NCBI GenBank assembly: GCA_902802105.1
Contig: CADCKR010000005.1
Span: 1 to 50,814, forward strand
DNA: 50,814 bases
Reading direction: 5' to 3'
Source of the DNA: an uncultured Ruminococcus sp.
Lineage (GTDB): Bacteria; Bacillota; Clostridia; Oscillospirales; Acutalibacteraceae
Positions 461 to 41,222 of this stretch are shown piece after piece (the first letter of the stretch is position 1; the number at the start of each line of letters is the position of its first letter). Below the pieces are notes generated by a model. That model was given only the letters and a program-made list of their open reading frames with translations, searched no databases and was not told the origin of the DNA. Both the position numbers and the translations under genes were made by a program.

Positions 461-656
461 TTTAGTCAGAGGGACTTTCAGAGTGTGAAGCGTGGAGTGT
501 GGAGTGTGGAATCAGCGGCACAGAGCGAATAAATTGCATGATCATATATTTTTTGGTTGCGCTGCCTGTCTTTCTCATACCGCAGTCAGTACCGCCGCGG
601 AAAGTAAATCAGCGGCTCAGAGTTGGGAGCGGCAGCTTGCCGCCGGACACGGGGGC
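461..656. repeat. Mosaic intergenic repeat, island 1
   Basis: Gene-free DNA assembled from modules seen elsewhere in the window: a TTAGTC..GGGACTTTC piece (compare 29288-29325), GGAGTGTGGAGTGTGGA (compare 31745-31760 and 41090-41112 in inverted sense), a stretch around 535-594 ending CCGCAGTCAGTACCGCC (compare 36470-36526), and a GGAGCGGCAGCTTGCCGCC hairpin (626-644) followed by GGACACGGGGGCGG (compare the inverted copy at 31575-31600). No SD-led reading frame is present. It lies upstream of the membrane protein that starts at 758. Confidence 0.7.
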
Positions 657-757
657 GGAAATTTAACCTGATATTCATTATGCTTGACATATAAGACAAT
701 TAGCTATAAAATAATATGGGTGTTTGCCTGACAATTTTTAACGGATGGAGAGATGCT

Positions 758-2275
758 ATGGCTGAAAACAGATTTGTTCGATCAATGAAAAGCACGGATA
801 TTACCGGAAAACGCAGGCTTGGCGTAAGCTATATCCTGTTTCTGTTCATACTTGCAGTCATTTCTATCACAATATGCTCCAAATCGTCGCCTGTCTATCC
901 GCTGAACAACTGGGACGATGCAAACTGCTTCTTCACCGTCGGGCGCACAACCGTAAACGGTCAGGTCATGTACCGTGATATCTTTGAGCAGAAGGGACCC
1001 TGGCTGTATTTTATATACGCCTTTGCCGCTCTTATTTCAGGCGGATCATTCTTCGGAGCATATCTTATCGAAATTGCAGCCTTCTTTGTCTTTCTGCTGT
1101 TCAGCTCAAAGACTGTTCTGCTTTTCTGCGACAGACGGGCGGTTATCCTCATGCCGTTTATTGCTGCCGCTGTATGCACCGCTCCTGCATTTGAACAGGG
1201 CGGCTCTGCTGAGGAACTGTGCCTTCCGCTTATCGCATACAGTTTGTATGCGGGGCTGAAATCTATCGTCAGCGAAAAGCCCGTAAGCCGTTTGGAGTGG
1301 TTTTTTATCGGCATTACTTCCGGTACCGTGCTCTGGATAAAATTCTCGCTGCTCGGTTTCTATCTCGGCTGCGGTGTGTTTCTTGTTTTCTATTATATAA
1401 AGCAAAAATGGCACCGTGAGTTTATCAGCTTTCTGTTTATGCTGCTGGCCGGTGAAGCCGTTATATCCGTTCCGGTATTTGCCTATTTCATTATCAACGG
1501 CGCACTGCGGGAATTATTTGACGTTTATTTCTACTGCAACATTTTTGTGTATTCCGTAAGGTCTGTTGACAACCGCCTGCTCGCTGTAGTGCTGAATCTC
1601 TTTGAGGGCACAAAAAGCCTGCTTTACAGCTTCGGCTTTATCTGTGCGGTCAACATCTGCGGAGGAATATACCTGTTTTTCAGGTCAAGGCGTATGTTCG
1701 GGTTCGTGCTTTGTTCATGTCTCAGCGCATTCCTGCTGATATATGTCGGCGGAAGAAGATACATATACTACTCGCTCGTTCTTGCGGTATTTGCGCCTCT
1801 CGGCCTTGTGCTTATCTATAAGGTGCTGAGGCTGCTGCACAAAAAAAAGCTGCCGGACGGCAGCGGAATAAACACTGTATTCGGCTCATGTATGCTGTGC
1901 TACACTGTTCTGACTTCGCTTATATGGAGCCCGAACACCTACATGATGGCCTACAGCCGCAGCGATATGCCGCAGTACAAATTTGCGGAAACCATCTCGC
2001 AGACAAAGGATCCGACTATCCTTAATTTCAGGTTCCTTGACGGCGGCTTCTACACTGCCTGCGGCATCCTGCCGAACTGCCGTTTCTTCTGCGGGCTGAA
2101 TATTCCCTACGCCACAAGTGAGCAGGAGCGTTATGTGCGCGACGGTGATGTTGACTACCTGATAACCCGTGATGAAACGGTTCACCTTGAAAACTACAAG
2201 CTTATCAGTATCGAAAGCTTTGAAGCCCACAAAAACAGCTATTCGGTATATTATCTTTATCAAAAGATCACATGA
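758..2275 (+). CDS. Multi-pass membrane protein, GT-C (GT39/PMT-like) glycosyltransferase
   Basis: About 505 residues with roughly ten hydrophobic segments. Near the N-terminus an external loop carries NNWDDANCFFTVGR and then YRDIFEQKGPWLYF; an acidic pair followed by YRD-x-F-x-x-KGP is the pattern of polyprenyl-phosphate-sugar-dependent GT-C enzymes (PMT_2/GT39), which add sugars outside the membrane. The start is set at 758 because GGAGAG (747-752) lies 5 bp upstream; an earlier in-frame ATG at 716 has no ribosome site. A 38-residue membrane peptide follows after 12 bp. The acceptor cannot be told from sequence. Confidence 0.65.
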   Translation: MAENRFVRSMKSTDITGKRRLGVSYILFLFILAVISITICSKSSPVYPLNNWDDANCFFTVGRTTVNGQVMYRDIFEQKGPWLYFIYAFAALISGGSFFGAYLIEIAAFFVFLLFSSKTVLLFCDRRAVILMPFIAAAVCTAPAFEQGGSAEELCLPLIAYSLYAGLKSIVSEKPVSRLEWFFIGITSGTVLWIKFSLLGFYLGCGVFLVFYYIKQKWHREFISFLFMLLAGEAVISVPVFAYFIINGALRELFDVYFYCNIFVYSVRSVDNRLLAVVLNLFEGTKSLLYSFGFICAVNICGGIYLFFRSRRMFGFVLCSCLSAFLLIYVGGRRYIYYSLVLAVFAPLGLVLIYKVLRLLHKKKLPDGSGINTVFGSCMLCYTVLTSLIWSPNTYMMAYSRSDMPQYKFAETISQTKDPTILNFRFLDGGFYTACGILPNCRFFCGLNIPYATSEQERYVRDGDVDYLITRDETVHLENYKLISIESFEAHKNSYSVYYLYQKIT

Positions 2276-2287
2276 CAGGAAACGGAG

Positions 2288-2404
2288 ATGATCATTCTGT
2301 ATAACAAAAGAAAAAAGCTTATACGCATAGTAAGCCTGATACTCTGCATTATGATGGTTTTAGGCGCATTTTCCATACTTATGTATACTTTAAGCGGGAT
2401 CTGA
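2288..2404 (+). CDS. Small single-pass membrane protein (38 aa), DUF4044-like
   Basis: ATG with AGGA 7 bp upstream, starting 12 bp after the preceding stop, so it is probably translated from the same message. The peptide starts MIILYNKRKKLIRI and then has one hydrophobic helix ending at ILMYTLSGI. A basic N-terminus plus one helix resembles the short DUF4044-type peptides common in Firmicutes; this is a resemblance only. It is followed directly by a terminator, which marks it as the last gene of the unit. No function is claimed. Confidence 0.6.
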   Translation: MIILYNKRKKLIRIVSLILCIMMVLGAFSILMYTLSGI

Positions 2405-2450
2405 AAACAGACGCAGCGATCACACAAAATGATCTCTGCGCCTGTTTTTT
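2404..2450. terminator. Bidirectional terminator between convergent genes
   Basis: ACAG-A-CGCAG-C-GATCA pairs with TGATC-T-CTGCG-C-CTGT across a CACAAAA loop, with four A on the left and six T on the right. It ends the plus-strand pair and can also end ricT on the minus strand. Confidence 0.8.
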
Positions 2451-2458
2451 CTGATGCC

Positions 2459-3328
2459 TTAATTCTTTTCCAATTTTTTCAGCTTTTCCATTTCTGTGCG
2501 GTCGATCTTGATCTGACCGTCCTTGATGACTGTTACATCTGACACCTTGTATGTGTGCGGCGCTGCATCGGGCGATTTGTTCAGCGATACGCTGAGTATG
2601 CCCGTTATCAGGTTCACATCCACTACATTGCCCTTACCGTCAGGCGTGCTGACAAATGCGCCGATCTTGGGCGTCCTTTTGAGCAGGTCTGTATATGCCT
2701 CCTGCTCATATTTAAGGCAGCACATGAGCCTGCCGCAGGTGCCCGATATCTTTACAGGGTTGAGCGACATTCCCTGCTCCTTTGCCATCCTTATAGACAC
2801 GGGCTGGAAATCTCCCAGAAAGGTCTTGCAGCAGAACGGTCTGCCGCATATGCCAAGGCCGCCAAGCATCTTCGCTTCGTCCCTTACTCCGATCTGACGG
2901 AGCTCTATGCGTGTTCTGAAAACATAAGCAAGATCCTTTACAAGATCACGGAAATCTACCCTGCCGTCTGCGGTAAAGTAAAAGAGTATCTTGTTGTTGT
3001 CAAAGGTGTATTCAACATTTATCAGCTTCATTTTGAGCCTGTGCTCATTTATCTTCTGAGCGCATATCTCAAAAGCCTTCTTCTCCTTCTCACGGTTCTC
3101 GTTCACACGAACGATATCCTCATCAGTAGCCTTGCGTATCATCTTTTTCAGCGGATATGTTATCTCGTCATCGGGTATCATCCTGTTTGCCATTGCCACC
3201 TCGCCGCATTCTACTCCGCGGCTCGTTTCTACGATAACAAGATCGCCCTTGTTGAATTCATGTCCGTCAGGATCGAAATAATATATTTTTCCGACCTCTC
3301 TGAATCTTACTCCGATTATATATGCCAT
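2459..3328 (-). CDS. ricT: RicT/YaaT PSP1-domain protein
   Basis: 289 residues with the PSP1 C-terminal domain fold. Two cysteine clusters, GICGRPFCCKTF (about 160-171) and GTCGRLMCCLKYE (about 196-208), are the family hallmark; in B. subtilis the RicA-RicF-RicT complex binds two [4Fe-4S] clusters and is needed for RNase Y-dependent mRNA maturation and for sporulation and competence. The start has GGAGGAAATT directly upstream. It lies 13 bp after holB, the same neighbour order as B. subtilis holB-yaaT, which supports the call. The C-terminus after the PSP1 core is a short basic tail. Confidence 0.9.
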   Translation of the reverse strand: MAYIIGVRFREVGKIYYFDPDGHEFNKGDLVIVETSRGVECGEVAMANRMIPDDEITYPLKKMIRKATDEDIVRVNENREKEKKAFEICAQKINEHRLKMKLINVEYTFDNNKILFYFTADGRVDFRDLVKDLAYVFRTRIELRQIGVRDEAKMLGGLGICGRPFCCKTFLGDFQPVSIRMAKEQGMSLNPVKISGTCGRLMCCLKYEQEAYTDLLKRTPKIGAFVSTPDGKGNVVDVNLITGILSVSLNKSPDAAPHTYKVSDVTVIKDGQIKIDRTEMEKLKKLEKN

Positions 3329-3341
3329 AATTTCCTCCGTA

Positions 3342-4304
3342 TCATTCAGACCTCAGCACGGCACAAAGCCATGTGCTGTAAAAATTCAGGTTTACATTTA
3401 TATTCAGCACGTCCCTTGCGTGAAGGATGCTGCTCTGAAGCTTCAGCAGTCTCCTGCGTGAGAGCTTTGCGGCTATCTCCCTTGCGGCAGAGCCTGCATC
3501 GGACGCTCCAAGGGATGCTCTGACGCATTCCGCAGAAAGACTGCAAAGCCTGTCAAGGACTGAGACAGCAAATGCTCTGTCACGGGCTATGCTGCTCGTA
3601 AGCAGCAGCAGCGGATATTCAGAGGTCTGCGTTACCGCCCTGAGAATATCCTCGGCTGTTTTCTTTTCCTCTTCGCCGCCGTTTTCGATAAGCTCCAGTG
3701 CCGCTCCGATGTTCCCGCAGCAGTCGGCGGCCGCCTGCTGAATTATTTCGGGAGAAACGTCAGGTCTGAGCCTTAGCAGCACCTCTGCCGCTTCGCTGAC
3801 AGACGGCGGATAGAGCGTCATTACCCTTGAACGTGAGCGGACTGTCTGCAAAAGATTTGACGCAGAAAGAGCCGTCATAATAAACATGACATTCCTCGGC
3901 GGTTCCTCCAGTACTTTAAGAAAAGCATTCTGGGCGGCAGGCAGCATCTTTTCGCAGTTCAGCAGTATATACACCTTATTCGGCGCTTCATTGGGCTTTA
4001 TGTATGCGTCTGTCCTTATACTGCGCACTGCCTCGATATTCAGCTCTCCCGCCTTGCTTCCGTCTGCCGTAAAAATATCGGGATGTATTCCCTTTGCAGC
4101 CTTTATGCAGTTTGCGCACACCCCGCACGGACGCTCTCCTGATGAAGTGCAGACCGCATAGCCTGCAAGTATACCTGCAAGCGAAGATCTTCCGCAGCCC
4201 TTTTCGCCCTCTATTATTATTGCATGAGGAAGGCTGCTGTTCCTCATTGCTTCGGCAAGCTCATATTTCAGCTCGGCATTAGCCGCAAGATCACTTAACC
4301 GCAT
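3342..4304 (-). CDS. holB: DNA polymerase III delta-prime subunit
   Basis: About 320 residues. N-terminal AAA+ domain with GEKGCGRSS where the P-loop lysine is replaced by Arg, as expected in a delta-prime subunit that does not need to hydrolyse ATP. A four-cysteine zinc module follows (C-x8-C-x2-C-x2-C region starting VCTSSGERPCGVC). NAFLKVLEEPP and an SRS-type sensor region are clamp-loader signatures. It loads the sliding clamp with DnaX and HolA. The start is set at 4304: GGAGAG (4311-4316) lies 6 bp upstream, whereas an ATG at 4310 abuts the SD and an in-frame TTG at 4325 lies before it. ricT follows. Confidence 0.9.
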   Translation of the reverse strand: MRLSDLAANAELKYELAEAMRNSSLPHAIIIEGEKGCGRSSLAGILAGYAVCTSSGERPCGVCANCIKAAKGIHPDIFTADGSKAGELNIEAVRSIRTDAYIKPNEAPNKVYILLNCEKMLPAAQNAFLKVLEEPPRNVMFIMTALSASNLLQTVRSRSRVMTLYPPSVSEAAEVLLRLRPDVSPEIIQQAAADCCGNIGAALELIENGGEEEKKTAEDILRAVTQTSEYPLLLLTSSIARDRAFAVSVLDRLCSLSAECVRASLGASDAGSAAREIAAKLSRRRLLKLQSSILHARDVLNINVNLNFYSTWLCAVLRSE

Positions 4305-4329
4305 TATCATCTCTCCATCCTGCAAGCCT

Positions 4330-5604
4330 TTACTTCTCGCCGTTATCCTCTTCGGGCATACAAACGACAGTAACAGTGTTTATGCGGTTATCCTCAACAT
4401 CCTCAACAGTTACCTCCAGATTATCATAGCAGAATTTGCTGCCCTTTTTGGGGATATCTCCAAGCTGCTCGATCACCCATCCGCCGACAGACCTGCTCTC
4501 GGTGGTGAAATTCTTCGGGTCCTTCTTGACAAGATCAAGCATCTCGTTGATGTGAAGATCACCGCTTATCTCGAATTTGTTATCATCTATCTTGCTGAAC
4601 TTCTTTTCGACCTCTTCATCCTCGTCCCAGATATCGCCTACAAGCTGCTCGAGAAGATCCTCCATCGTCACGATGCCGAGAGTACCGCCGTAGTCGTCAG
4701 TCACGACTGCAATATGCAGGCGCTTGTATTTGAAATCGGCAAGTATTGACGGCAGAGTCCTTGAACGGTAAATGAAAAATGCAGGCTGTATCAGATCATC
4801 AAGCTTCGGAGCATCACTCTTGAGCAGGGCTTCAAGGTAATCCCTTGTATGAAGTATGCCAAAGATATTATCTATGCTGTCACGGTAAACGGGTATCCTT
4901 GAATACCTCTCCCTGAGTATTATCTCCCTGATCTTTTCGGGCGGGTCGTCGATGTCTATTGCCGTCATATCTACTCTCGGAGTAAGGATATCGGCAGCAG
5001 TCTTTTCGTCAAAATCAAGCGCAGACTGTACAAGCTCGCTTTCCTGTTCTTCAAGCACGCCCTCGTCCTCGATGCTCTCGACTATGTATTTAAGCTCATC
5101 CTCGGTCACTGTAGGCTCCTTTTCGGTCTTGCCCTTTGAAGCCACCCTCTTGGCAAGAGAGCTGAGCTTCAGCAGCAGGAACGTCACGGGAGAGAGCAGC
5201 AGCATTATCAGATAAAGCGGGGTCGAAAAAGCCATTGCGACCTTTTCGCTGTTTTCCTTTGCTATATTCTTGGGCAGCACCTCGCCGAAGATGAGTATTA
5301 CCACCGTCAGTATGACCGTACTCAGCAGAGTGCCGTTCGCCTCGCCGAAGAATGAAACAAAAAGCAGCGTACAGAGAGAGGATGCCGCAATGTTTACTAT
5401 GTTGTTTCCGACAAGTATAGCCGAAAGAGCTTTGTCGTAGTTTTCCGAAATGCGGTAGGCTTTCTTTGCTTTTTTGCTGCCGTTGTCGGCGTAGCTTTTC
5501 AGTCTTACCTGATTCACCGATGAATAAGCCGTTTCCGTTGAGGAAAAAAAGGCTGACAGCATCACAAGAAGAATTATTATTCCTGAAAGCAGCCAGGGAT
5601 CCAA
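4330..5604 (-). CDS. DUF21/CBS-pair/CorC-HlyC membrane protein (hemolysin-like, CNNM family)
   Basis: 424 residues. Four hydrophobic helices in the first 150 residues form the DUF21 domain (SAFFSSTETAYSSV near the start is typical), followed by a CBS pair (TPRVDMTAIDID, then VTDDYGGTLGIVTMEDLLEQLVGDI) and a C-terminal CorC_HlyC domain of about 80 residues. Members export or sense Mg2+/Co2+ (CNNM/YhdP/MpfA group); the exact substrate is not readable here. The start appears to be TTG with GGAGTGA about 9 bp upstream. The holB reading frame begins 25 bp after its stop, so the two may be cotranscribed. Confidence 0.85.
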   Translation of the reverse strand: MDPWLLSGIIILLVMLSAFFSSTETAYSSVNQVRLKSYADNGSKKAKKAYRISENYDKALSAILVGNNIVNIAASSLCTLLFVSFFGEANGTLLSTVILTVVILIFGEVLPKNIAKENSEKVAMAFSTPLYLIMLLLSPVTFLLLKLSSLAKRVASKGKTEKEPTVTEDELKYIVESIEDEGVLEEQESELVQSALDFDEKTAADILTPRVDMTAIDIDDPPEKIREIILRERYSRIPVYRDSIDNIFGILHTRDYLEALLKSDAPKLDDLIQPAFFIYRSRTLPSILADFKYKRLHIAVVTDDYGGTLGIVTMEDLLEQLVGDIWDEDEEVEKKFSKIDDNKFEISGDLHINEMLDLVKKDPKNFTTESRSVGGWVIEQLGDIPKKGSKFCYDNLEVTVEDVEDNRINTVTVVCMPEEDNGEK

Positions 5605-5807
5605 AATATATCACTCCAATTTTAATATTACGATTATATATTATAGGCAAAAGCAAAAGATTTATAATTCTATCAGAGAATTATTGCATAATATTTTACG
5701 ATTTAAAGCTCACGACTTCCCATAAAAGCGGGGGCTGCATTTTGTGGAAAATCACATACCGCAAGCAGTATGGACATTATTGCTAAAATAATATAATTAT
5801 TGTGCTG

Positions 5808-5836
5808 TTGATTTATGCAAAGGCAGATGATATACT
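5808..5836 (+). promoter_or_regulatory. Promoter of the GH13/MATE pair
   Basis: TTGATT (5808-5813), 17 bp, TATACT (5831-5836), then GGAGGTGA (5864-5871) 7 bp before the GTG start. The rest of 5605-5807 is AT-rich with no gene seen. Confidence 0.65.
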
Positions 5837-5878
5837 ATAATAAAATAATACAATATTTTCCACGGAGGTGACATTATA

Positions 5879-9975: not shown

Positions 9976-10117
9976 TGCCCGCCCTCCGTTCAGTTTTTGT
10001 ATCACTATCAATTATTTCCGGAGGACAAGAAAATTATTCATGCTAATTCCTGATAAAAAATCAGACCGCAAAAATCGTCTGCTTTTTGTTAGGTATTAGT
10101 ATCATAATCAGAACAGC

Positions 10118-10147
10118 AAAAGCCGGCAGTAAATGCCGGCTTTTTTG
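10118..10147. terminator. Terminator, GCCGGCA hairpin
   Basis: GCCGGCA and TGCCGGC (7 bp) close over GTAAT-like GTAAA, flanked by four A and six T. It lies directly after the stop of the ATP-grasp gene on the minus strand and upstream of spoVAD, separating the two. Confidence 0.75.
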
Positions 10148-11146: not shown

Positions 11147-11248
11147 ACGGTCACATCCAATCTTATTTTTAGCACCATTATAGTTTACAATACAGGCAGA
11201 GTTTTTTCAAGACCATATTTATACAAAAATATTTCCTTTATTACGGAT

Positions 11249-13504: not shown

Positions 13505-13548
13505 TTTATACACCTCAGATCAATCATAGTCTTTAAAAGAAGGTTTCG

Positions 13549-13584
13549 GCAAAAGACCGCTGACGCACCTTCTTCTAAGAGCGG
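13549..13584. repeat. Fragment of the mosaic repeat inside the arg operon
   Basis: 36 nt between argB and argD match 36555-36590 without gaps at about 30 positions (shared core CCGCTGA-Y-GCACCTTCTTCT). With AAGAAGGT upstream (13536-13544) it can also close a hairpin against ACCTTCTT, which might affect readthrough or RNA stability between the two genes. Confidence 0.5.
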
Positions 13585-13587
13585 CAA

Positions 13588-14448
13588 TTAATAGAACATT
13601 GTGCCGATACCTTCATCGGAGAACATCTCGATCAGGATCGAATGCGGGATGCGGCCGTCAATGATGTGCGCGCGCTTTACTCCGCGGCGGACGGCTTCAA
13701 CGCAGCAGTCGATCTTCGGTATCATTCCGCCTGAGATTATGCCCTCACGCTTCAAAGACGGTACTTCGCTGACGTTGACAACAGGAATAAGTGTGCCTTC
13801 GTCATCCTTGTTGCGGAGAAGTCCTTTTATATCTGTCATAAGAATGAGCTTGGCTGCCTTCATCTCGGACGCTATACGCGCGGCGGCAAGGTCTGCATTG
13901 ATATTATAAACATCGCCGTTATATCCGCCCGCAACAGTTGATATTATCGGCACATAACCGTTCCTTGTAGCGTTCTCGATAACCTCTGTATGTATCTCGG
14001 TGATCTCACCCACAAAGCCAAGATCAACTCCTGACGCCTTCTTTTCAGCCATTATCATCCTGCCGTCAAGTCCGCAAAGACCGATGGCCTTGCCGCTGTG
14101 CTGCTCCAGAAGCTGCACAAGGCTCTTGTTCACCTTGCCTGCAAGCACCATCTGTACTATATCAATAGTTTCTTCATCAGTTACTCTCAGACCGTTTACA
14201 AAACGGCTCTCTTTGCCTATCTTGTTGAGCATTCCGCTTATCTCGGGACCGCCGCCGTGAACAAGCACGACATTTATGCCGATAAGCTGCAAAAGCACGA
14301 TATCGCTCATAACAGCATCCTTGAGCTCAGGGCTTATCATTGCATTGCCGCCGTATTTTACTACGATGGTCTTGCCTGCCCACTTCTGTATATAAGGAAG
14401 AGCCTGCACAAGCACGTTTGCTCTGTCCTGATCGGAAATATTACGCAT
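13588..14448 (-). CDS. argB: Acetylglutamate kinase
   Basis: 286 residues of the amino-acid kinase fold: TIVVKYGGNAM near the start (phosphate-binding lysine and glycines), VLVHGGGPEIS (substrate loop), NINADLAAARIA and GGMIPKIDCC (nucleotide site). It phosphorylates N-acetylglutamate, the second step of the pathway and the usual point of arginine feedback in organisms with ArgJ recycling. CAGGTG lies just upstream of the ATG. It starts 22 bp after the argJ stop. Confidence 0.96.
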   Translation of the reverse strand: MRNISDQDRANVLVQALPYIQKWAGKTIVVKYGGNAMISPELKDAVMSDIVLLQLIGINVVLVHGGGPEISGMLNKIGKESRFVNGLRVTDEETIDIVQMVLAGKVNKSLVQLLEQHSGKAIGLCGLDGRMIMAEKKASGVDLGFVGEITEIHTEVIENATRNGYVPIISTVAGGYNGDVYNINADLAAARIASEMKAAKLILMTDIKGLLRNKDDEGTLIPVVNVSEVPSLKREGIISGGMIPKIDCCVEAVRRGVKRAHIIDGRIPHSILIEMFSDEGIGTMFY

Positions 14449-18155: not shown

Positions 18156-18180
18156 GTTCTTCACCTTTTCATCGTAAAAA

Positions 18181-18240
18181 TCCTTTTTATCGGGGAAATC
18201 CTTTTTATCGGGGATAACCTTTTTATCGGGGATAACCCTT
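18181..18240. repeat. Tandem 18-bp repeats in the argH leader
   Basis: Three head-to-tail units (18181-18198, 18199-18216, 18217-18234) of the form YCCTTTTTATCGGGGAWA, plus a partial fourth. On the message each reads CCCCGATAAAAAGG, and the argH ribosome site itself (GATGAAAAGG) looks like a further, diverged unit. The repeat therefore supplies several AAAAGG-type decoy or alternative ribosome-binding motifs just before argH. Confidence 0.75.
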
Positions 18241-18267
18241 TTTTCGAGTGAAAAAAGGGTTATCCCC
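18228..18267. repeat. Perfect 18-bp inverted repeat with 4-nt loop (argG-argH gap)
   Basis: 18228-18245 and 18250-18267 are exact reverse complements (GGGGATAACCCTTTTTTC) around GAGT. The left arm shares its GGGGATAAC with the tandem repeat, so the tandem units look like partial copies of one arm. There is no T-run after the stem on the message, so it does not look like a standard terminator; an RNA-stability hairpin, processing site or mobile palindrome are possible. Confidence 0.8.
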
Positions 18268-19748: not shown

Positions 19749-19934
19749 GCAGGCAACTTTTGTATATTTATCAGGTTTATTTTAATATCTCATTCGGGTT
19801 TTGTTGATAACATACATATATTTATGAGATATAGCCAAATATCAGCAGGAGTTTGGCGCATTTTACCATATCATAAGCGACGTCCGGCATAAGAAAATAT
19901 ACATTTATGCATAAAATAATGTATAATATACATT

Positions 19935-20300
19935 CCACTCTGTGCCGCCTGCAAGCTTTATGGAGTGCGGAGTTTGGAGCAAACTGTTATAGTGAATAGT
20001 GGATAGTGGATAGTAATCAGCGCCTGCTAAAGAAGTCTTTGCAAAGCACCGCTGATGCACCTGCTTCTACGGGAATGACTAAGGAATGAACAGAACAAAG
20101 CGAGTGTAAACGAGCGGAGCGGACACGGCACCGGCGGCTCGCCGGCGCAGGCTCTGCGCCAGCGTCTGCTAAAGAAGTCTTTGCAAAGCAACGCGGATGC
20201 ACCTGCTTCTACGGGAATGACTGCCTAATGAGCAAGAAGGAGCGACACAACCAACTAACGCCGTTGTTTTACACTCGCAGGGAGCGGAAAGGGGTGCGAA
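19935..20300. repeat. Mosaic intergenic repeat, island 2
   Basis: Holds GTGGATAGTGGATAGT, two copies of a 55-nt module (20026-20080 and 20168-20222: GCTAAAGAAGTCTTTGCAAA at the start, CTACGGGAATGACT at the end), a GCGAGTGTAAACGAGCGGAG segment, two adjoining hairpins CCGGCG-GCT-CGCCGG (20131-20145) and GCGCAG-GCT-CTGCGC (20145-20159), and AACGCCGTTGTTTTACACTCGCAGGG cut as 20256-20285. The same order of modules appears inverted at 31600-31735. No SD-led gene is present between 19661 and 20385. Confidence 0.75.
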
Positions 20301-25517: not shown

Positions 25518-26699
25518 TCAGGCAACGTGATTTTTCAGGTAGTCTACCCATACCGCGCAGCCTGCATCGGAGAAATGCAGACCCATTGCTGTAGGATCGC
25601 CGCAGTATTCATAGACAAGGTTGCCGTATCCGTCATCCATCGCAGAAGCAACGTCAAGATAGATATATCCCCTCTCCTGACAGATCGGCTGTATTTTTTC
25701 GTTGAATTCGGCAATAGTCCTGTTGTTGAGATCCCTGAGCTGCATATTCTCAAGCATCGGCGTAACCGACTGGACGTATATCACCGCATTCGGGCATTTA
25801 TCGGCAATGCGCTGAGTTACGGTCTTCATAGCCTCTACAGCGCCGTCAACGCCGTACATTCCGATATCGTTCATGCCGAGCATGATAAATATCTTTGCAG
25901 GGTTTATATATGCAGCGCCGTCATCGACAAGAAATTTCTGTCCGTTATAATACGGGTGCACATTGTCAGGATCGTTGAGATCCCATTGCGCATTGTTATA
26001 TCCAAGACTGCCGGCGCACAAAAACTCTGCATCTCCGAGAGAGCCGTAGTCAGCATAGTAGGATAATTTCAGAGTAACGCTGTCACCGATGAAAAGAGCA
26101 TCGTCAAACCAGCCTGCATCGACCGCAGTGCCGGAAGGAGTTACAGAAGGACGCGATACAGGTTCTTCCCTGCTGCTTTCTTCCTCAAGGTATTCCTCTT
26201 CGCTGCTTTCTTCTTCACTGTCCTTTGAGCCTTCGTCAGCGCTTTCTTCTTCGCTGTCCTCTGAGCCTTCGTCAGTGCTTTCTTCTTCGCTGTTCTCTGA
26301 GCCTTCGTCAGTGCTTTCGCCTTCGCTGTCCTCTGAGCCTTCGTCAGTGCTTTCACCTTCGCTGTTCTCTGAGCCTTCGTCAGTGCTTTCACCTTCGCTG
26401 TTCTCTGAGCCTTCGTCCGCAGACTTTTCGTTTTCCTGCTCTGAGGTGCCGGATCCGGAAGCCTTGCTTTCATCCTTTGAAGCCTGAGCGGAGCTGTCCT
26501 TTGATGAGGCATCGGATGAAGTCTTTTGCTTATCGGAGCTTTCCTTTATCGGCAATGTTGACTTTTCTTCCGTTTCGCTTGCTGTTTCGGATATCTCAGC
26601 CGATGAGTCACTTTTTTCATCGACCTTATTATTTTTTGAGCAGGCACAGAGCGACATTACAAGAGCCGCTGAAATAATTGCTGCAAAAAGCTTTTTCAT
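25518..26699 (-). CDS. SGNH/GDSL-hydrolase lipoprotein with acidic repeat linker
   Basis: About 393 residues. Lipobox VMSLCAC; then a Ser/Thr/Lys linker and six 12-residue acidic repeats of the DEGSENSEGEST kind; then an SGNH domain from DAGWFDDALF. Catalytic blocks are visible: FIGDSV (Ser), AGSLGYN (Gly), LGMNDIG (Asn), and GLHFSDAGC (Asp/His). Such proteins add or remove O-acetyl groups on surface glycans. Start 26699 has GAGGT just upstream. Its paralogue lies 10 bp upstream in the operon and has the same catalytic domain without the repeats. Confidence 0.85.
   Translation of the reverse strand: MKKLFAAIISAALVMSLCACSKNNKVDEKSDSSAEISETASETEEKSTLPIKESSDKQKTSSDASSKDSSAQASKDESKASGSGTSEQENEKSADEGSENSEGESTDEGSENSEGESTDEGSEDSEGESTDEGSENSEEESTDEGSEDSEEESADEGSKDSEEESSEEEYLEEESSREEPVSRPSVTPSGTAVDAGWFDDALFIGDSVTLKLSYYADYGSLGDAEFLCAGSLGYNNAQWDLNDPDNVHPYYNGQKFLVDDGAAYINPAKIFIMLGMNDIGMYGVDGAVEAMKTVTQRIADKCPNAVIYVQSVTPMLENMQLRDLNNRTIAEFNEKIQPICQERGYIYLDVASAMDDGYGNLVYEYCGDPTAMGLHFSDAGCAVWVDYLKNHVA
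26209..26424 (-). repeat. Coding tandem repeat, six 36-bp units
   Basis: GAGCCTTCGTC recurs at exact 36-bp steps (26227, 26263, 26299, 26335, 26371, 26407). Each unit encodes DEGSE-(N/D)-SE-(G/E)-ES-(T/A). The units differ only at a few positions, so copy number could change by slippage and alter linker length. Confidence 0.85.
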
Positions 26700-29228: not shown

Positions 29229-29325
29229 TAAATCAGCGGCGTTAGTTTTTTGGTGTTGCTCATTTATGCTCATTACTTAATTCAGCTTTCGGGGGGGACT
29301 TCCGCTTGAAAGTCCCCCCGACTAA
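29229..29325. repeat. Mosaic intergenic repeat, island 3
   Basis: CGGCGTTAGTTTTTTGGTGT (29236-29255) recurs at 31632-31651. It is joined to a very strong hairpin (GGGGGGACTT pairing AAGTCCCCCC, about 29290-29317) whose left arm resembles GGGACTTTC at 468-480. No gene is seen in 29195-29359. Confidence 0.65.
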
Positions 29326-29795: not shown

Positions 29796-29822
29796 AAAGC
29801 CTGATCAAGCTGTTTTGTTATA

Positions 29823-31436: not shown

Positions 31437-31519
31437 TAAGATAACCCCTTTTCTTTTTAGCCGACAAAGCATCGTACCCACAGGCACATCAACGCATTGC
31501 CGTCCTTAATAACAATAAT

Positions 31520-31549
31520 ATAATACACTAAAAACAGTATATTTGTCAA
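31520..31549 (-). promoter_or_regulatory. Promoter of pckA
   Basis: On the minus strand a perfect TTGACA (31544-31549), 18 bp, TATTAT (31520-31525), with a leader of about 75 bp. Confidence 0.65.
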
Positions 31550-31568
31550 TACAACATCGAAAATATCC

Positions 31569-31863
31569 CGTGTCCGCTGCGGCAAGCTGCCGCCCCCGTG
31601 TCCGCTCCCGCTCCCTGCGAGTGTAAAACAACGGCGTTAGTTTTTTGGTGTCGCTCCTTCTTGCTCATTCGGCAGTCATTCCCGTAGAAGCAAGTGCATC
31701 AGCGATGCTTTGCAAAAACTTCTTTAGCAGACGCTTTTAACTCTACACTCCACACTCCTAACTCCTAACTAATTTTCTGGCGGCATTGACTAAGGTATGT
31801 GTTGAACAAGCAGATAATCGGGAGCGGCGGCTCGCCGGCGAATTGGGAGCGGCGTCTCGCCGG
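31569..31863. repeat. Mosaic intergenic repeat, island 4
   Basis: Inverted relative to island 2 with the same module order: GCGGCA-AGC-TGCCGC hairpin (31579-31593), GTGTCCGCTCC, ACACT-type segment with CGGCGTTAG (31620-31645), CTCCTTCTTGCTCATTCGGC, the 55-nt module (about 31670-31729), ACTCCACACTCCTAACTAA, then GTATGTGTTGAACAAG and two 25-bp hairpin units (31814-31838, 31839-31863). These units stop 7 bp short of the stop codon of the minus-strand gene at 31871. No gene lies in 31437-31870. Confidence 0.75.
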
Positions 31864-31870
31864 CGCTGAA

Positions 31871-33205: not shown

Positions 33206-33262
33206 TTCGTTTACCTCCGTACCTTTATTATTTATACAGTCTATTATAGCTGTACAATACTA

Positions 33263-33291
33263 TTATTATCATATAAAACAGCATCTGTCAA
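33263..33291 (-). promoter_or_regulatory. Promoter of the secreted protein, embedded in the alaS terminator
   Basis: On the minus strand TTGACA (33286-33291), 17 bp, TAATAA (33263-33268). The whole -35 box lies inside the left arm of the alaS terminator hairpin. Confidence 0.6.
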
Positions 33292-33320
33292 TATTTCAGG
33301 GAATAAATTGACAGATGCTG
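33270..33320 (-). terminator. Terminator of alaS
   Basis: CAGCATCTGTCAAT (33279-33292) and ATTGACAGATGCTG (33307-33320) are perfect 14-bp inverted arms around a 14-nt loop. On the minus strand the stem is followed by TTTTATATG. Confidence 0.8.
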
Positions 33321-33382
33321 ATATATTGGATATGCGATTTTGTATTATTTTTGTTGTACTTTGCAGTAATGCGGCAAGAATA

Positions 33383-36013: not shown

Positions 36014-36044
36014 TTTTATCACCCTTTGCTTAATTTGCCGCCGT

Positions 36045-36275
36045 GAGAAATAAAAAAGACCCTTTCGCCTGTATGGGACGAAAAGATCCGTGTTACCACC
36101 CAAATTGCGCGCCAAAGACGCGCCGCTCAAAGGCCATAACGCAGCCATGCGTTGCGGTTTTCCGCAAATGCTCCGAGTCAGCCCAAGCAGCCTTCCGTAA
36201 AAACCTCTCATCAAACGGTTTTCTCTCTTTGACGGCGGTATTGCTCTTTTTCTCATCACAGCAGCATATATATAC
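36045..36275 (-). promoter_or_regulatory. T-box riboswitch controlling alaS (tRNA-Ala sensor)
   Basis: On the minus strand the leader has a Stem I with AGAGAGAAAACCG and GATGAGAGG (distal loop type), a candidate specifier GCT (Ala) at 36180-36182 inside GGGCTGACTCGG, and the T-box proper GGGTGGTAACACGG (36089-36102), whose TGGT fits the ACCA end of tRNA-Ala. It is followed by a 12-bp terminator stem (GATCTTTTCGTC 36077-36088 with GGCGAAAGGGTC 36058-36069) and six T. Uncharged tRNA-Ala would favour the antiterminator and alaS synthesis. Confidence 0.9.
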
Positions 36276-36281
36276 AATACT

Positions 36282-36309
36282 ATTATAATCAAAAAATCCT
36301 CCGTGTCAA
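36282..36309 (-). promoter_or_regulatory. Promoter of alaS
   Basis: On the minus strand a perfect TTGACA (36304-36309), 16 bp, a perfect TATAAT (36282-36287), just upstream of the T-box leader. Confidence 0.8.
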
Positions 36310-36371
36310 TGAAAATTTTCGTGAAGAGCGTTTTTTCATCATTTTGATCAAAAAAAATCGCCTTTCAGCAG

Positions 36372-36400
36372 TTGTATCCCCGCCTTGACTGTGGTATAAT
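36372..36400 (+). promoter_or_regulatory. Candidate plus-strand promoter, far upstream of a lipoprotein gene
   Basis: TTGTAT (36372-36377), 17 bp, TATAAT (36395-36400). It would give a leader of about 235 nt that includes mosaic island 5 before the gene at 36645. Confidence 0.45.
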
Positions 36401-36461
36401 CCTGATATTGACTGAATTAAGTTTGGAGTTATTCAAAATTGTAAAGTTAAAAGTTTATAAT

Positions 36462-36600
36462 ACGCAAGCATATACTTTTTATGGTTACGCTGTCTGTCTC
36501 TCTCATGCCGCAGTTAGTACCGCCAGAGTAATTATGTCTGCTAAAGCAGTCTCTGCAAAGCGCCGCTGATGCACCTTCTTCTGCGGGCGGAAAGCTGCGG
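36462..36600. repeat. Mosaic intergenic repeat, island 5
   Basis: CATATACTTTTTATGGTTACGC..CCGCAGTTAGTACCGCC (36469-36526) matches 538-594 with a few changes. GTCTGCTAAAGCAGTCTCTG and GCAAAGCGCCGCTGATGCAC (36537-36574) belong to the 55-nt module of islands 2, 4 and 6. It lies in the leader of the lipoprotein gene. Confidence 0.7.
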
Positions 36601-36644
36601 AATGAGTTTTTTAGATATCACATAAATAAGGAGAAAAAGAAACA

Positions 36645-37496
36645 ATGAAAAAAACAGTTATTGCCCTGATTGCGGCTATGATGATACTGTCAATGGCCGC
36701 CTGCCGGAACGATAAAAACACAAAATCAGACTCTATACCCGAAGGAACAAGCACAGCTTCTGCATCAGAACAGCTTTCGGATGCTCAGAGCAGCATAACG
36801 CCTGAAAGCAAGGATAACAGCAGCTCTCCTTCCGGAAGCACAGTCGAACTGCCTGATGCAGAAGAAGCGACCTTCAATTCCGACAAGGATTACAGCGGCA
36901 CCGTTACCGGAAAATTCGTGGATGTGAGCAAGCTCTCCGACAAAACAAAGACCTGTGTTGTGGATGTACTCAACGGAGACACACTGACACTTGATGCCGA
37001 GGGAAAGTTGGCTATCGCAAAAGGCATATCAATAGATTTCAGCGCAAATATCAGAAAGGATAAGGAAAACACCTCGTTCCACATGATAATCGCCGGACAG
37101 GAATCAGCCGTTATAAGAAACGAAAGCGGCACCTACGTTATCGACAACAGCTCAAAGACAGCGACCCTCAGCAAAGCCGAAAGCTCTGACGAAAACGAAA
37201 GCGCATTCTATACAAATCCCGCTTCGGGCAAGGTCGTTTCGTTTATCGCATCACTTTTCGGAAAAGAACCTCTCACCTATTCAAAGAGCGGCTCTGAGGT
37301 ATTCGAGGGCGAAGCTCTGACCTATGAGGAATATACTGTCGGCAGCATAATCATACGGCTTTATTATGACGGCAATACAATAAAATATGCTTCAATAGAC
37401 AAAAGCGGAGCCGTATCTACAGTAAAGGTAAATACCCTTACAGCCAAAGTCGAACCCGATTCATTCAAAATTCCTGAAGGATATACTATAAAGTAA
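36645..37496 (+). CDS. Lipoprotein of unknown function
   Basis: 283 residues. Signal peptide with lipobox LSMAAC (Cys20), then a Ser/Thr/Asp-rich linker to about 65, then a folded domain with alternating hydrophobic and charged strands, ending KVEPDSFKIPEGYTIK. Strand pattern and the final FKIPEGY are reminiscent of LolA/LppX-like or outer-surface lipid carriers, but this is weak. GGAG lies 11 bp before the ATG, a long spacing. It is flanked by a repeat island upstream and a strong terminator downstream, so it is a single-gene unit. Confidence 0.6.
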   Translation: MKKTVIALIAAMMILSMAACRNDKNTKSDSIPEGTSTASASEQLSDAQSSITPESKDNSSSPSGSTVELPDAEEATFNSDKDYSGTVTGKFVDVSKLSDKTKTCVVDVLNGDTLTLDAEGKLAIAKGISIDFSANIRKDKENTSFHMIIAGQESAVIRNESGTYVIDNSSKTATLSKAESSDENESAFYTNPASGKVVSFIASLFGKEPLTYSKSGSEVFEGEALTYEEYTVGSIIIRLYYDGNTIKYASIDKSGAVSTVKVNTLTAKVEPDSFKIPEGYTIK

Positions 37497-37543
37497 CCGT
37501 AAGCAAGACTGGTTCATTACCGTTTGCAGCAGCACAGCAAATA

Positions 37544-37588
37544 CCGCAGTATGCCGATATCTCACGGCACACTGCGGTGCTTTTTTTC
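37544..37588. terminator. Bidirectional terminator, lipoprotein / vanZ
   Basis: CCGCAGTATGCCG (37544-37556) pairs with CGGCACACTGCGG (37565-37577) with one mismatch over an 8-nt loop; TGCTTTTTTT follows. The vanZ stop at 37562 lies inside it on the other strand. Confidence 0.8.
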
Positions 37589-38140
37589 TCTGTATTTTCT
37601 TTTTATCCTATGGTACAGACGGTACAGTCCATATCCGACGGCCGCACCTGTTGTATTCAGGATGAGATCGTCAACATCGGTCGTCCTTTCAAGCGGTATC
37701 TGCACTGTTTCTATAATGAGCGATATAAAAAAGCCCCTCACAAGCGTCTGTGAATAATTGGTTCTGTACAGTACCGCTATGAAAATTCCTACCGGAACAA
37801 AAATGCCTATATTGCCGATAACATTAAAAATAAAACCTCTGTATAAAAAAACATTCTGCCCCGACTCAATAAGCTGCTTTATAATTATATAAAACGGTAT
37901 AAGATATATTTTATTAAGACCCGGATTATATATAAACGTCTGTGTAAAAAGCATTATCAAAAAGGTCATAAACAGCAGCAATATTGTTTCATGCACCATG
38001 TCGGGCTTGTCTGAAAGATCGGTCTTTTTTCGTTCTTTAAGATAAAGCAGCCGCAAAAAAATACATATCGGCAGAAACAACAAAACCAATGCCGTTCCCT
38101 CTGACAAAAACTTAGCTAAATATTGGATCACAGTTCTCAT
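37562..38140 (-). CDS. VanZ-like membrane protein
   Basis: 192 residues with four to five helices. NVIGNIGIFVPVGIF and the SLIIETVQIPLERTTDVDDLILNTTGAAVGYGLY stretch, cut here as SLIIETVQ and DVDDLILNTTGAAVGYG, are the conserved VanZ blocks. VanZ of Enterococcus gives low teicoplanin resistance; chromosomal relatives are of unknown role and should not be read as resistance genes. Its ATG overlaps the whiA stop (ATGA), so it is coupled to whiA. It is the last gene of the hprK-murB-rapZ-whiA run. Confidence 0.85.
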   Translation of the reverse strand: MRTVIQYLAKFLSEGTALVLLFLPICIFLRLLYLKERKKTDLSDKPDMVHETILLLFMTFLIMLFTQTFIYNPGLNKIYLIPFYIIIKQLIESGQNVFLYRGFIFNVIGNIGIFVPVGIFIAVLYRTNYSQTLVRGFFISLIIETVQIPLERTTDVDDLILNTTGAAVGYGLYRLYHRIKRKYREKKHRSVP

Positions 38141-39063
38141 TTGCCCTTTAGCTCCTCCGCTATAGCCATAAGCCGCTGTATACGGTGGTTTGCGCCCGAA
38201 CGGCTTATCGGCACGGGCAAAGCGCTGCCAAGCTCTCTGAGATTGAACTCCGGGTGCTCTACGCGAAGCATAGCCATCTCACGAAGATCCTCAGGAAGAG
38301 AATCAAGACCGCGCTTTTCACGTATCAGGTCAATGGCGATCAGCTGCTTTGCCGATGCATCGGCTGTTTTATTAAGATTGGCAGTTTCAGAATTGATCCT
38401 GCGGTTCACACGGTTCCTTACGGATTTTACCATTCGGCTCTGCATTATATTCAATGCAGACATAGGCGCGCCGATGTAGGTCAGCATATCCTCTATGTTA
38501 TCGCTGCCCTTGATGTAGACCACATAGCTGCCCTTGCGCAGGACAGTTTTCGGTTCGGCGCTTATCTCCTCTATCTCGCCTATTATCCTTTCAAGGTCGG
38601 ATGCAAGGTTCTTATGCGGAACAGAAAATTCAAGATGATAGTCCTTGTCGGGGTCGCTCACGCTGCCGCATACAAGAAAAACTCCCCTGAGAAAGCAGGC
38701 GTGTGCACCCTCACCGTCAATATTTGCCCGGTTTATGCGCAGGCTCGGCTGAGCGCGGTCGTGACCGAAAAAGTCAAATATCCTTGCGCAGTCCGATCTG
38801 TCGGGAACAGAAAGATAATAAAGGCTGCTCTCCCCCTTGCGCCTTGTAAGCTTTACCTCAAGGTCAACAATAGCTCCCGTAAGCGATGCAAGACCCTCTG
38901 AATAAGTCATTGCGGCAGGGCGTGATTCGGTAGTCATGGAAACAGCAGAAGAACTGAACTGCTTTGAAAACAAGGCCATTCCGTATATCAGAGCTGTTTT
39001 CTGTTCAGGTGAAAGCTCTCCTGCTGCACAAAGTGATTCCTTGGTTTCCTTTGAGAAAGACAT
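38137..39063 (-). CDS. whiA: WhiA family DNA-binding protein
   Basis: 308 residues. N-terminal part resembles a degenerate LAGLIDADG fold (FLRGVFLVCGSVSDPDKDYHLEF is typical), and the C-terminal helix-turn-helix is ENLRE-type: EHPEFNLRELGSALPVPISRSGANHR, cut as NLRELGSALPVPISRSG. WhiA controls division in Bacillus and sporulation septation in Streptomyces. It starts 6 bp after the rapZ stop, with GGTGATA as ribosome site. In many Firmicutes yvcK lies between rapZ and whiA; it is absent here. Confidence 0.93.
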   Translation of the reverse strand: MSFSKETKESLCAAGELSPEQKTALIYGMALFSKQFSSSAVSMTTESRPAAMTYSEGLASLTGAIVDLEVKLTRRKGESSLYYLSVPDRSDCARIFDFFGHDRAQPSLRINRANIDGEGAHACFLRGVFLVCGSVSDPDKDYHLEFSVPHKNLASDLERIIGEIEEISAEPKTVLRKGSYVVYIKGSDNIEDMLTYIGAPMSALNIMQSRMVKSVRNRVNRRINSETANLNKTADASAKQLIAIDLIREKRGLDSLPEDLREMAMLRVEHPEFNLRELGSALPVPISRSGANHRIQRLMAIAEELKGK

Positions 39064-39069
39064 ATATTA

Positions 39070-39939
39070 TCACCGCTTATTCTTTGAAACATCTCTGTGG
39101 TGTATGACAGCTCTCTGTCTGGATTCAATAATATGCTGATAGAGCACTCTCGTGAGCGTGACAGAACGGTGCTGGCCGCCTGTGCAGCCGATAGCTATGA
39201 CAAGTTGGCTTTTGCCCTCGGAAAGATAGAGCGGAAGAGTGTAGTCAACAAGCGATATCATCCTTTCGGCAAAGCCCTTCGACTGCTCAAAGCTCATCAC
39301 ATAATCATAAACGCAGGCTTCAAGTCCGGTGTGCTGCTTCAGTTCAGGGATATAGAATGGATTCGGCAGACAGCGCACATCAAACACAAGGTCGGCTTCG
39401 GCAGGTATACCGTACTTAAATCCGAAAGAAATGCAGGTAACAGTCATGCCCAATGCAGCGTTGCCAAGGAACAGCGCAGCTATTCTTTCTCTTAGCTGTG
39501 AGCCGGAAAGCAGAGACGTATCTATAACATAATCAGCTCTTGCCTTTACGTGCATAAGAAGGCTGCGTTCAAGGGCAACCGCATTTTCGGTAGATCCCTT
39601 GCTGACATCCACAAGGGGGTGCTTGCGGCGTGTTTCTTTATAACGCCGCAGAAGAACATCGTCCCTTGCATCGAGGAACAGTATCTTGTAGTTCTTTTTG
39701 TCTGATCTGAAGCTGTCAAGAGCCTCAAACAGGTCGTCAAATGCATCGCCTGCCCTGACATCGGTAACTACTGCGATCTTCTTCATTCTCTCGTCCGATG
39801 ATCTTTCGCACAGATCGTAAAATGTCGGCAGGAGCATCGGAGGGATATTATCTACACAATAATATCCGATATCCTCCATGCTTTTCATAGCAACGGATTT
39901 TCCGGCGCCGGAAAGACCCGTTATAATAATAAATTCCAT
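39070..39939 (-). CDS. rapZ: RapZ/YvcJ nucleotide-binding protein
   Basis: 289 residues. P-loop GLSGAGKS is at residues 7-14; CVDNIPPMLLP, then FLDARDDVLLRRYKETRRKHPL and IGCTGGQHRSVTL near the C-terminus are the family signatures. E. coli RapZ guides RNase E to GlmZ; Firmicutes members bind nucleotides and affect competence and UDP-GlcNAc responses, with the exact role less clear. Start 39939 (MEFIIITGLSG) has AGGTGA 5 bp upstream. It lies between murB and whiA. Confidence 0.93.
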   Translation of the reverse strand: MEFIIITGLSGAGKSVAMKSMEDIGYYCVDNIPPMLLPTFYDLCERSSDERMKKIAVVTDVRAGDAFDDLFEALDSFRSDKKNYKILFLDARDDVLLRRYKETRRKHPLVDVSKGSTENAVALERSLLMHVKARADYVIDTSLLSGSQLRERIAALFLGNAALGMTVTCISFGFKYGIPAEADLVFDVRCLPNPFYIPELKQHTGLEACVYDYVMSFEQSKGFAERMISLVDYTLPLYLSEGKSQLVIAIGCTGGQHRSVTLTRVLYQHIIESRQRAVIHHRDVSKNKR

Positions 39940-40002
39940 AATTATCACCTGATTGACGGAGCACTGTAATCTGTCTGCAAGTGATGCGGCAGAAAAAGCG
40001 CT

Positions 40003-40914
40003 TTATGTTCTGCCGATAAACCTTACCTCACAGCAAAGCTCAACATTTTTCTTTTCCTTTACTTCCTTTTTTATGTGGTCGATAAGTCCAAGCACATCAT
40101 TTGCGCTTGCACCGTTGTCATTTACAATAAAGCCTGCGTGTTTCGGGCTGACCTGAGCGCCGCCGTATTCATAGCCTTTAAGTCCGCATTCTTCGATAAG
40201 GGCGGCAGCATATCCGTTTACAGGACGCTTGAACACACTGCCTGCGCTGGGATGGTTGATGGGCTGCTTTGTCTTGCGCTGCTCCATAAGCTCCTGCATT
40301 TTTTCGGTTATCACATCCTGTGGCCTTGGCTCAAGCCTGAATGATGCGCGAAGGATTATATTATCCGTATCAGTAAACGCGCTGTGACGATAGGAAAAAT
40401 CAAGCTCATCATCCTTGCAGCGTTTTATATTGCCGTCCTTGTCCATATAATCGACAGAGAATACGATATCCTTTATTTCTCCGCCGTAGGCTCCCGCGTT
40501 CATATATATTGCTCCGCCTACAGAACCCGGGATACCCCATGCAAATTCAAGTCCGCCCAAGGACATATTCCTTGCAAAGTTGCACAGTCTTGCAAGCGTA
40601 GAGCCTGCACCGCAGCGCACTATATTATCGTCTGCAAGCGTGATCTCGTTAAATTCTCCGTCAAGCCTGATAACAAGCCCCTCGATGCCGTTATCGGAAA
40701 CAAGTATGTTTGAGCCAAGCCCAAGTATAAAATACGGTATGTTTCGTTCCCTGCAAAGCAGGATTATATTTCTGAGCGAACGCACATCCCTGACAGAGCA
40801 AAAGCAATCTGCCTTGCCGCCTATGCGGAAGCTTGTATGGCTTTTCATTTCTTCGTCAAGCTTTATTTCTGCGTTTTCTCTGCTCAGTATATCAATAAAT
40901 TCTTTTTCTATCAT
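40003..40914 (-). CDS. murB: UDP-N-acetylenolpyruvoylglucosamine reductase
   Basis: 303 residues, type II MurB. FAD-binding segments FILGLGSNILVSDNG and FAWGIPGSVGGAIYMNAGAYGGE (cut as GIPGSVGGAIYMNAGAYGGE), the active-site Ser in PSAGSVFKRP, and the C-terminal KHAGFIVNDNGAS block are all present. It reduces UDP-GlcNAc-enolpyruvate to UDP-MurNAc for cell wall synthesis. AGGAGATATT precedes the ATG. It is separated from hprK by a 308-bp repeat island, unlike the tight spacing usual for this block. Confidence 0.95.
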   Translation of the reverse strand: MIEKEFIDILSRENAEIKLDEEMKSHTSFRIGGKADCFCSVRDVRSLRNIILLCRERNIPYFILGLGSNILVSDNGIEGLVIRLDGEFNEITLADDNIVRCGAGSTLARLCNFARNMSLGGLEFAWGIPGSVGGAIYMNAGAYGGEIKDIVFSVDYMDKDGNIKRCKDDELDFSYRHSAFTDTDNIILRASFRLEPRPQDVITEKMQELMEQRKTKQPINHPSAGSVFKRPVNGYAAALIEECGLKGYEYGGAQVSPKHAGFIVNDNGASANDVLGLIDHIKKEVKEKKNVELCCEVRFIGRT

Positions 40915-40954
40915 AATATCTCCTTATATTCGCTTTTATATAAAAAATTCGCCT

Positions 40955-41222
40955 TCGCCAGCGCCGGCGAGCCGCCGGTGCCGTGTCCGCTCCGCTCGTT
41001 TACACTCGCTTTGTTCTGCTCATTCTTTAGTCATCCCCGTAGAAGTTGGTGCATCCGCGGTGCTTTGCAAAGACTTATTTTACGCTTAAACTCCACACTC
41101 CACGCTCCACACTCCTAACTAATTTTCTGTATGTGTTGAACAAGAAGCGAATCGGGAGCGCAGGCTCTGCGCCGAATTGGGAGTGCAAAGCCTGCGCCGA
41201 ATCGGGTGCGGCAGCTTGCCGC
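40955..41222. repeat. Mosaic intergenic repeat, island 6, between hprK and murB
   Basis: Inverted relative to island 2. It holds CGGCG-AGC-CGCCG (40964-40978), CCGTGTCCGCTCCGCTCG, the TTTACACTCGCTTTG segment, a 55-nt module (about 41028-41083), CTCCACACTCC repeats, TAACTAATTTTCTGTATGTG, then three exact-length 25-bp units (41148-41172, 41173-41197, 41198-41222). The last unit ends flush against the hprK stop codon. No gene is seen. Confidence 0.8.
41148..41222. repeat. Three tandem 25-bp hairpin units with changed stems
   Basis: Each unit is CGAATYGGGWG plus a hairpin. The hairpins are GCGCAG-GCT-CTGCGC, an imperfect GTGCAA-AGC-CTGCGC, and GCGGCA-GCT-TGCCGC. The first and third keep full pairing though the stem sequence differs, and the GCT loop and the CGAATYGGG linker stay constant. 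Confidence 0.75.

Follow-up and report, generated by a model that had tools for sequence, protein, structure and literature searches.

What are the repeated islands that lie between the genes of a 50,814-nt stretch of DNA from an uncultured Ruminococcus sp. (assembly GCA_902802105.1, contig CADCKR010000005.1, positions 1 to 50,814; hereafter the window), and how did they come to be there? A first-pass annotation of the window had pointed out six islands assembled from shared short modules. Our analysis moderately favours the view that they belong to a genus-wide family of non-autonomous mosaic repeats with hairpin ends, akin to repetitive extragenic palindromic (REP) sequences and acting at the DNA level. 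The ends of these repeats are short GC-rich hairpins with a 6-bp stem, a GCT loop and a tetranucleotide GG[GC][AT] 5' of the GCT strand; they are inverted relative to one another and enclose inverted arms and a body that is specific to the species.

Family size and module order

The genome from which the window derives comprises 2,000,699 bases on 50 contigs and is 89.5% complete. Searched against it at E<=1e-3, self matches included, island queries of 196, 295 and 111 nt gave at least 63, at least 77 and 22 matches, respectively, 40 first-look candidates being scored for the two longer queries. About 276 kb of this genome were fetched around similarity matches to the window islands, and stretches with at least three module matches, as judged with a dictionary of 22 words for modules, were counted as islands. 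There were 63 islands in the initial 235 kb and 73 in the enlarged 276 kb; the 73 together amount to 18.0 kb, or about 0.9% of the genome, with a median length of 215 bp and a maximum of 660 bp. The modules of the window thus recur widely in their own genome, and the family is larger than the six islands first reported. A body or right-arm piece is present in 65 of the 73 islands, and a few consist mainly of a second element described below.

Read in the majority orientation, the order is left hairpin(s), left arm, s, k or t, body unit, right arm, d and right hairpin(s). The left arm exists as type 1 (CTTGTTCAACACATAC) or type 2 (CTGTCTTGCTCATACC), and the right arm as F or as f-g; t is a heptamer module, and the body is E or G followed by Z (55-nt unit), single or in tandem with k. 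The most frequent module neighbours are EZ (60), kE (34), ZF (32), sk (30), Fd (27) and 1s (22). That modules keep their relative order, as first proposed, is borne out by 451 body-module matches running forward and 8 reversed, 7 of the latter in the second element; module loss, gain and tandem duplication, and islands in both orientations, were likewise recovered. Tandem 7-bp words (TTAGGAG, TGTGGAG, GGATAGT) also occur in islands, for example at 19991-20012 and in L092; the sample holds 15 runs of the first kinds, each 2-4 units long, and relatives carry related or other words.

The hairpins, whose role as conserved ends common to sister species with different bodies had escaped the first-pass annotation, are strongly oriented. 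All 39 hairpins directly before arm 1 or 2 show the AGC-loop strand, whereas 45 of the 48 that follow d, F or g show the GCT-loop strand, so that the island ends are inverted; the remaining 3 are left-type and are read as the start of the next unit. Three 15-mers dominate the sampled islands, GCGGCA-GCT-TGCCGC (47), GCGCAG-GCT-CTGCGC (41) and CCGGCG-GCT-CGCCGG (23), and the stems are paired at 6 of 6 positions in 115 hairpins and at 5 of 6 in 26. The four nucleotides 5' of the GCT strand are GGGA in 58, GGGT in 30 and GGCA in 21, together 109 of 131 hairpins, and neither GTAG nor CGTC is among the 16 tags listed, which cover 127 of the 131. Only 9 of 165 hairpins fall within called genes though 79% of the sample is called coding (simple codon-usage calls), in agreement with the intergenic placement noted earlier.

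Islands of the window

All six islands originally listed were read and are real, their common modules exceeding chance by far: positions 20029-20152 and 40957-41080, compared within the window, are 124-nt inverted copies that are 94% identical. Two entries of that list need qualification, since 36462-36600 has fewer than three strict module matches, although it is recognisable, and 29229-29325 belongs in part to a separate hairpin family. Gene names (argG, pckA, murB, hprK, etc.) are our reading of open reading frame (ORF) translations, made without a family search, and some ORFs of the mechanical list for the window cross islands.

461..656 (+): island 1, GTGGAG heptamer run, left arm type 2, s, k and a GCT-strand hairpin at 629-643; module string 2skCd at 566-653 according to the dictionary
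19935..20300 (+): island 2, two head-to-tail units, sEZF-d-hairpins AB, then EZ-fg-d; hairpins at 20131-20145 and 20145-20159
29229..29325 (-): island 3, reversed fg right-arm piece with a GGGGGGACTT / AAGTCCCCCC hairpin from another repeat family
31569..31863 (-): island 4, a full unit that runs hairpins - left arm 1 - s - t (heptamer module) - EZ - fg - d - hairpin
36462..36600 (+): island 5, degenerate left arm 2, s, EZ and a hairpin remnant
40955..41222 (-): island 6, full unit, hairpins c,b - arm 1 - t - EZ - F - d - hairpin A; its end is the stop codon of the hprK-like gene
40964..40978 (-): right-end hairpin of island 6, CCGGCG-GCT-CGCCGG, with GGCA directly before it on the same strand
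41208..41222 (+): left-end hairpin of island 6, GCT strand GCGGCA-GCT-TGCCGC on the + strand of the window, inverted relative to the right end
13522..13591 (+): seventh, degraded copy of the 55-nt body unit, between argB- and argD-like genes

The separate GGGGGGACTT...AAGTCCCCCC hairpin family seen at 29290-29325 is found on several contigs, on some of them with GCTTTCGGGG repeats. Other repeats of the window include 36-bp tandem repeats at 26161-26448, which encode a Ser/Glu-rich linker in an SGNH-hydrolase-like gene adjoined by a paralogue, and 18-bp tandem repeats (CCTTTTTATCGGGGATAA) at 18164-18253, towards the start of the argH-like gene. At 330-395 the hairpins GTCAGCCTTGCGGCTGAC and CCCCCGCCTTAGAGGCGGGGG lie next to each other, a pair that may resemble an IS200/IS605 right end.

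Inverted arms and reshuffling

Left and right arms are imperfect inverted copies of each other, a feature absent from the earlier description. In 29 pairs, the left arm aligned to the reverse-complemented right arm with a mean score of 15.1, as against 11.3 for shuffled left arms (standard deviation 0.4, highest of 200 sets 12.6) and 8.6 without reverse-complementing. Right arms taken from other islands score equally well (15.2), and type 1 or 2 on the left shows no linkage to F or f on the right (17:3 vs 6:2, p=0.61); consequently, the inverted arms are real, but they are reshuffled instead of co-evolving. Joints between modules lie at shared words, CTTCTACGG being followed by GCGGCAA 25 times, by GAATGAC 18 times and by GACTATC 10 times, and CGGCAAG is common to hairpin c and module k. 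Unlinked arms and joints at shared words together point to recombination at a later stage.

Orthologous gaps

On the pckA-like side of island 4, three relatives match the window until 31567, where the island begins, and the gap is island-free in all three that were read; beyond this point their gaps hold 65-188 bp of different DNA, in which a terminator-like hairpin can be made out by eye. Island 6 is missing from the murB-hprK gap in 8 of 8 relatives read (59 other genomes matched the query), and the gap before the gene at 36645 lacks its island in 2 of 2. Homology to two relatives ends at 19934, in an AT-rich stretch upstream of the argG-like gene, and the neighbouring gene changes there. 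Copy number, sharp boundaries and island-free gaps argue for insertion. The earlier wording, a non-autonomous, recombining family and not a simple MITE (miniature inverted-repeat transposable element), is supported in part, by the ordered modules, inverted hairpin ends, reshuffled arms and island-free orthologous gaps; mobility of the islands is deduced from copy number and the island-free gaps.

The same genome harbours a second, MITE-like element with ends CACGGAAATCAATTTT / AAAATTGATTTCCGTG and an internal hairpin (L025 at C14:14144-14762, L032 and L037 on C46, L067 on C1), which is interrupted by islands, for example on C46. A third short element, with inverted ends GGCAATACCGCACAAAGA / TCTTTGTGCGGTGTTGCC, holds a GCT-loop hairpin (L187 at about 990-1105, L179 at about 950-1108) and is flanked by TTAA (L187) or TAAG (L179); contigs C7, C9 and C17 begin within it.

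Distribution in the genus and beyond

The hairpin pattern was counted in 119 genomes, 64 from the genus (own genome included) and 55 from outside. Without its tag it occurs 180 times in the own genome, against a single occurrence of the pattern read backwards, and at least 40 times in 19 of the 64 genus genomes, own included, with a range of 0-303; the hairpins are thus patchily amplified across the genus. With its tag, the pattern occurs 134 times in the own genome, and 17 of 390 other genomes of the class, none of them from the genus, contain 1 or 2 matches, the maximum being 2.

In relatives the same hairpins follow GCGAA-N-GGGA-like flanks and enclose other bodies. Out of 1727 14-mers that recur near hairpins in the own genome, 0-10 are present per relative (nine relatives, 5-62 kb each), and relative G019 has 434 recurrent 14-mers of its own, 5 of which occur in the own DNA. 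A search with a whole island matched 12 of 59 relatives (at most 12 candidates scored per genome), every match being confined to a short piece, and the 55-nt unit is left uncovered by all matches listed for 14 relatives, of which 11 had a match. Identical end hairpins under species-specific bodies point to the ends as the conserved part, and hence to something that recognises them.

In relative G007, two tagged hairpins appear to stand near a reading-frame start (L094, near 1501-1538), possibly in frame as judged by eye. The single match of the 22-nt body word in a collection of named genomes, which may not include the own genome, falls inside a 349-aa ORF of another bacterium, in our judgement glycosyltransferase-like, and was taken as chance. 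Exact-pattern scans of viral contigs for viral, phage or plasmid carriers returned 0 stretches, and blastn with one island gave no match.

Gene context and RNA folding

From 65 islands, 14 without a called neighbour on one side were dropped, and 7 extended more than 10 nt into a called gene. The 51 with two called neighbours comprise 34 in co-directional, 14 in divergent and 3 in convergent gaps, compared with 35, 6 and 11, respectively, for background gaps of at least 60 nt. Islands therefore favour divergent over convergent gaps (14:3 vs 6:11, p=0.013), in counts that are not an unbiased census because the island sample was chosen by similarity. Between co-directional genes the element opposes the genes in 22 of 34 cases (p=0.12, counted by eye). 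Fold z-scores for two islands, of which one was folded on both strands, were -2.8, -1.5 and +0.6, and 85 copies of the body unit (84 distinct) yielded no consensus structure, performing no better than column shuffles.

Origin of the islands

We propose that the copies would have been placed between genes by an enzyme recognising the hairpin together with its flank, probably in the form of folded single-stranded DNA, as is the case for REPs. Such an enzyme may be supplied in trans, may since have been lost, or may have gone unrecognised here, and the mosaic may have arisen as copies later recombined and slipped at short words that they have in common, such as CGGCAAG. We describe the family as working like REP sequences and the bacterial interspersed mosaic elements (BIMEs) that they form without filing it among them, since the own genome has no Y1 match and the tag is neither GTAG nor CGTC.

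Several results weigh against this proposal. The search for PF01797, the Y1 transposase family that includes the REP-associated tyrosine transposases (RAYTs), found no match in the 89.5% complete own genome, its sensitivity for group-3 RAYTs not being established. Across the genus, Y1 presence is unrelated to hairpin number as counted in the genome tables (5 of 18 hairpin-rich genomes vs 11 of 43 others, p=1). Target duplications, which the first-pass annotation suggested looking for, were not found beside 10 islands with both hairpin ends, where the mean longest shared word was 3.5 vs 3.99 in shuffled pairs. Hairpins also occur in tandem without the body of the own genome (L091, L093) and singly. 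Genomes outside the genus reach 33 matches when the tag is left out (backward controls 0-23), so a few tens of such matches have no diagnostic value, and the comparison covered one genome per species, so that islands were compared between species and not between strains. The family may also have grown through slippage and gene conversion alone.

A closely related alternative holds that the islands are a true REP/BIME system, with REPs paired as REPINs (REP doublets forming hairpins), whose RAYT (TnpA-REP) has been lost or is encoded in the tenth of the genome that is missing. The layout resembles that of group-3 REPs, with a short perfect palindrome, a 3-nt GCT loop, a 5' tetranucleotide and inverted pairs; the REP of S. 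maltophilia also has a GCT loop (PMC8266576). The many, mostly intergenic copies (180 vs 1 in the control, 9 of 165 in called genes) and the Y1 matches in 16 of 61 genus members fit as well, but the tag is GGGA, GGGT or GGCA instead of GTAG or CGTC, and the own genome stayed negative in a search that detected matches in 6 of the 14 control genomes, among them E. coli. Moreover, among 17 Y1 places read in relatives (40 listed), one has a hairpin within 1.2 kb, and the hairpin-rich genomes G077 and G070, which are 95-98% complete, have no Y1 match, all of which makes this explanation rather unlikely. An ordinary MITE family with a DDE parent transposon would account for a unit of about 200 bp with inverted ends and for the island-free gaps in relatives, and the genome does contain two other MITE-like families. 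We consider it quite unlikely, given the lack of target duplication in the 10 islands, the variable end hairpins, the unlinked arms and the tandem units. The islands are too short to hold a transposase, and no hairpin pair in element orientation was seen by eye to enclose 1-4 kb of other DNA among the listed places on C1-C24 (part of the 180).

The islands could instead be a structured regulatory RNA or a transcription signal (terminator, attenuator or mRNA stabiliser) copied into many gaps. Hairpins with six GC-rich pairs, some islands abutting stop codons, the position of island 4 where relatives carry, by eye, a terminator-like hairpin, and one fold in three at z -2.8 are what such a signal might leave. 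We nevertheless hold it very unlikely: the other folds reach z -1.5 and +0.6, the 84 distinct body units share no consensus structure, the arms do not co-vary within islands, and divergent gaps are preferred whereas terminators would favour convergent ones. Scarcely credible is an artefact of assembling the metagenome bin, for although several contigs end inside islands, other islands lie within contigs between genes, two window islands have both flanks syntenic in relatives, and the same hairpins occur in many other genomes of the genus. Beyond the preferred, REP-like family of mosaic repeats, we suggest only tentatively that the genus has, or recently had, a hairpin-recognising mobilisation of DNA that is free of Y1 and RAYT proteins, with interchangeable GG[GC][AT]-tagged GCT-loop ends and cargo bodies captured by each species.

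Relation to known repeats and significance

Composite repeats between genes are well documented for enterobacteria, Neisseria and streptococci. Our literature searches listed no account of them in this bacterial group. None of six 15-nt hairpin strings was found in the literature searched, and an Rfam search of the window at gathering scores gave 0 matches; as far as searched, the family is therefore not a recognised named one, as first stated. Its design, which the first-pass annotation did not compare with known repeats, is close to BIME/REPIN, to the neisserial intergenic mosaic elements (NIMEs) and to BOX repeats.

Like the islands, BIME, REP and REPIN sequences of E. coli, Pseudomonas and Stenotrophomonas are 5'-tagged palindromes, in inverted pairs round a linker and in tandem mosaics, intergenic and in many copies (PMC8266576, PMC3116915). 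The islands differ from them by their tag, by the RAYT that was not found, by longer multi-module, species-specific bodies and by three interchangeable stems sharing one loop. In S. maltophilia, reversing the GCT loop of the REP impairs cleavage (PMC8266576). CGTC REPs are likewise REP-like repeats apparently without a dedicated transposase, whereas they have a CGTC tag, 8-9-bp stems and mostly 4-5-nt loops in place of GG[GC][AT], 6 bp and GCT (PMC3733652). The NIMEs of Neisseria meningitidis form intergenic arrays of 20-bp inverted-end repeats (dRS3) and 30-160-bp repeat families, but dRS3 reads ATTCCC-N8-GGGAAT (PMC3898611), a pattern not matched by the tabulated island end hairpins, which differ in sequence, being GC hairpins with a GCT loop in a fixed module order. 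BOX of Streptococcus pneumoniae, compared by design only, is composite, its end modules flanking middle units that vary in number, and nests with other repeats; it has target duplications, whereas the islands have hairpin ends, alternative arms and no such duplication in the 10 examined (PMC3049150).

The 64 genomes of the genus, with 0-303 pattern matches each, provide a natural series in which the gene that accompanies these hairpins could be sought. Such a series would test whether REP-like repeats need RAYTs at all.

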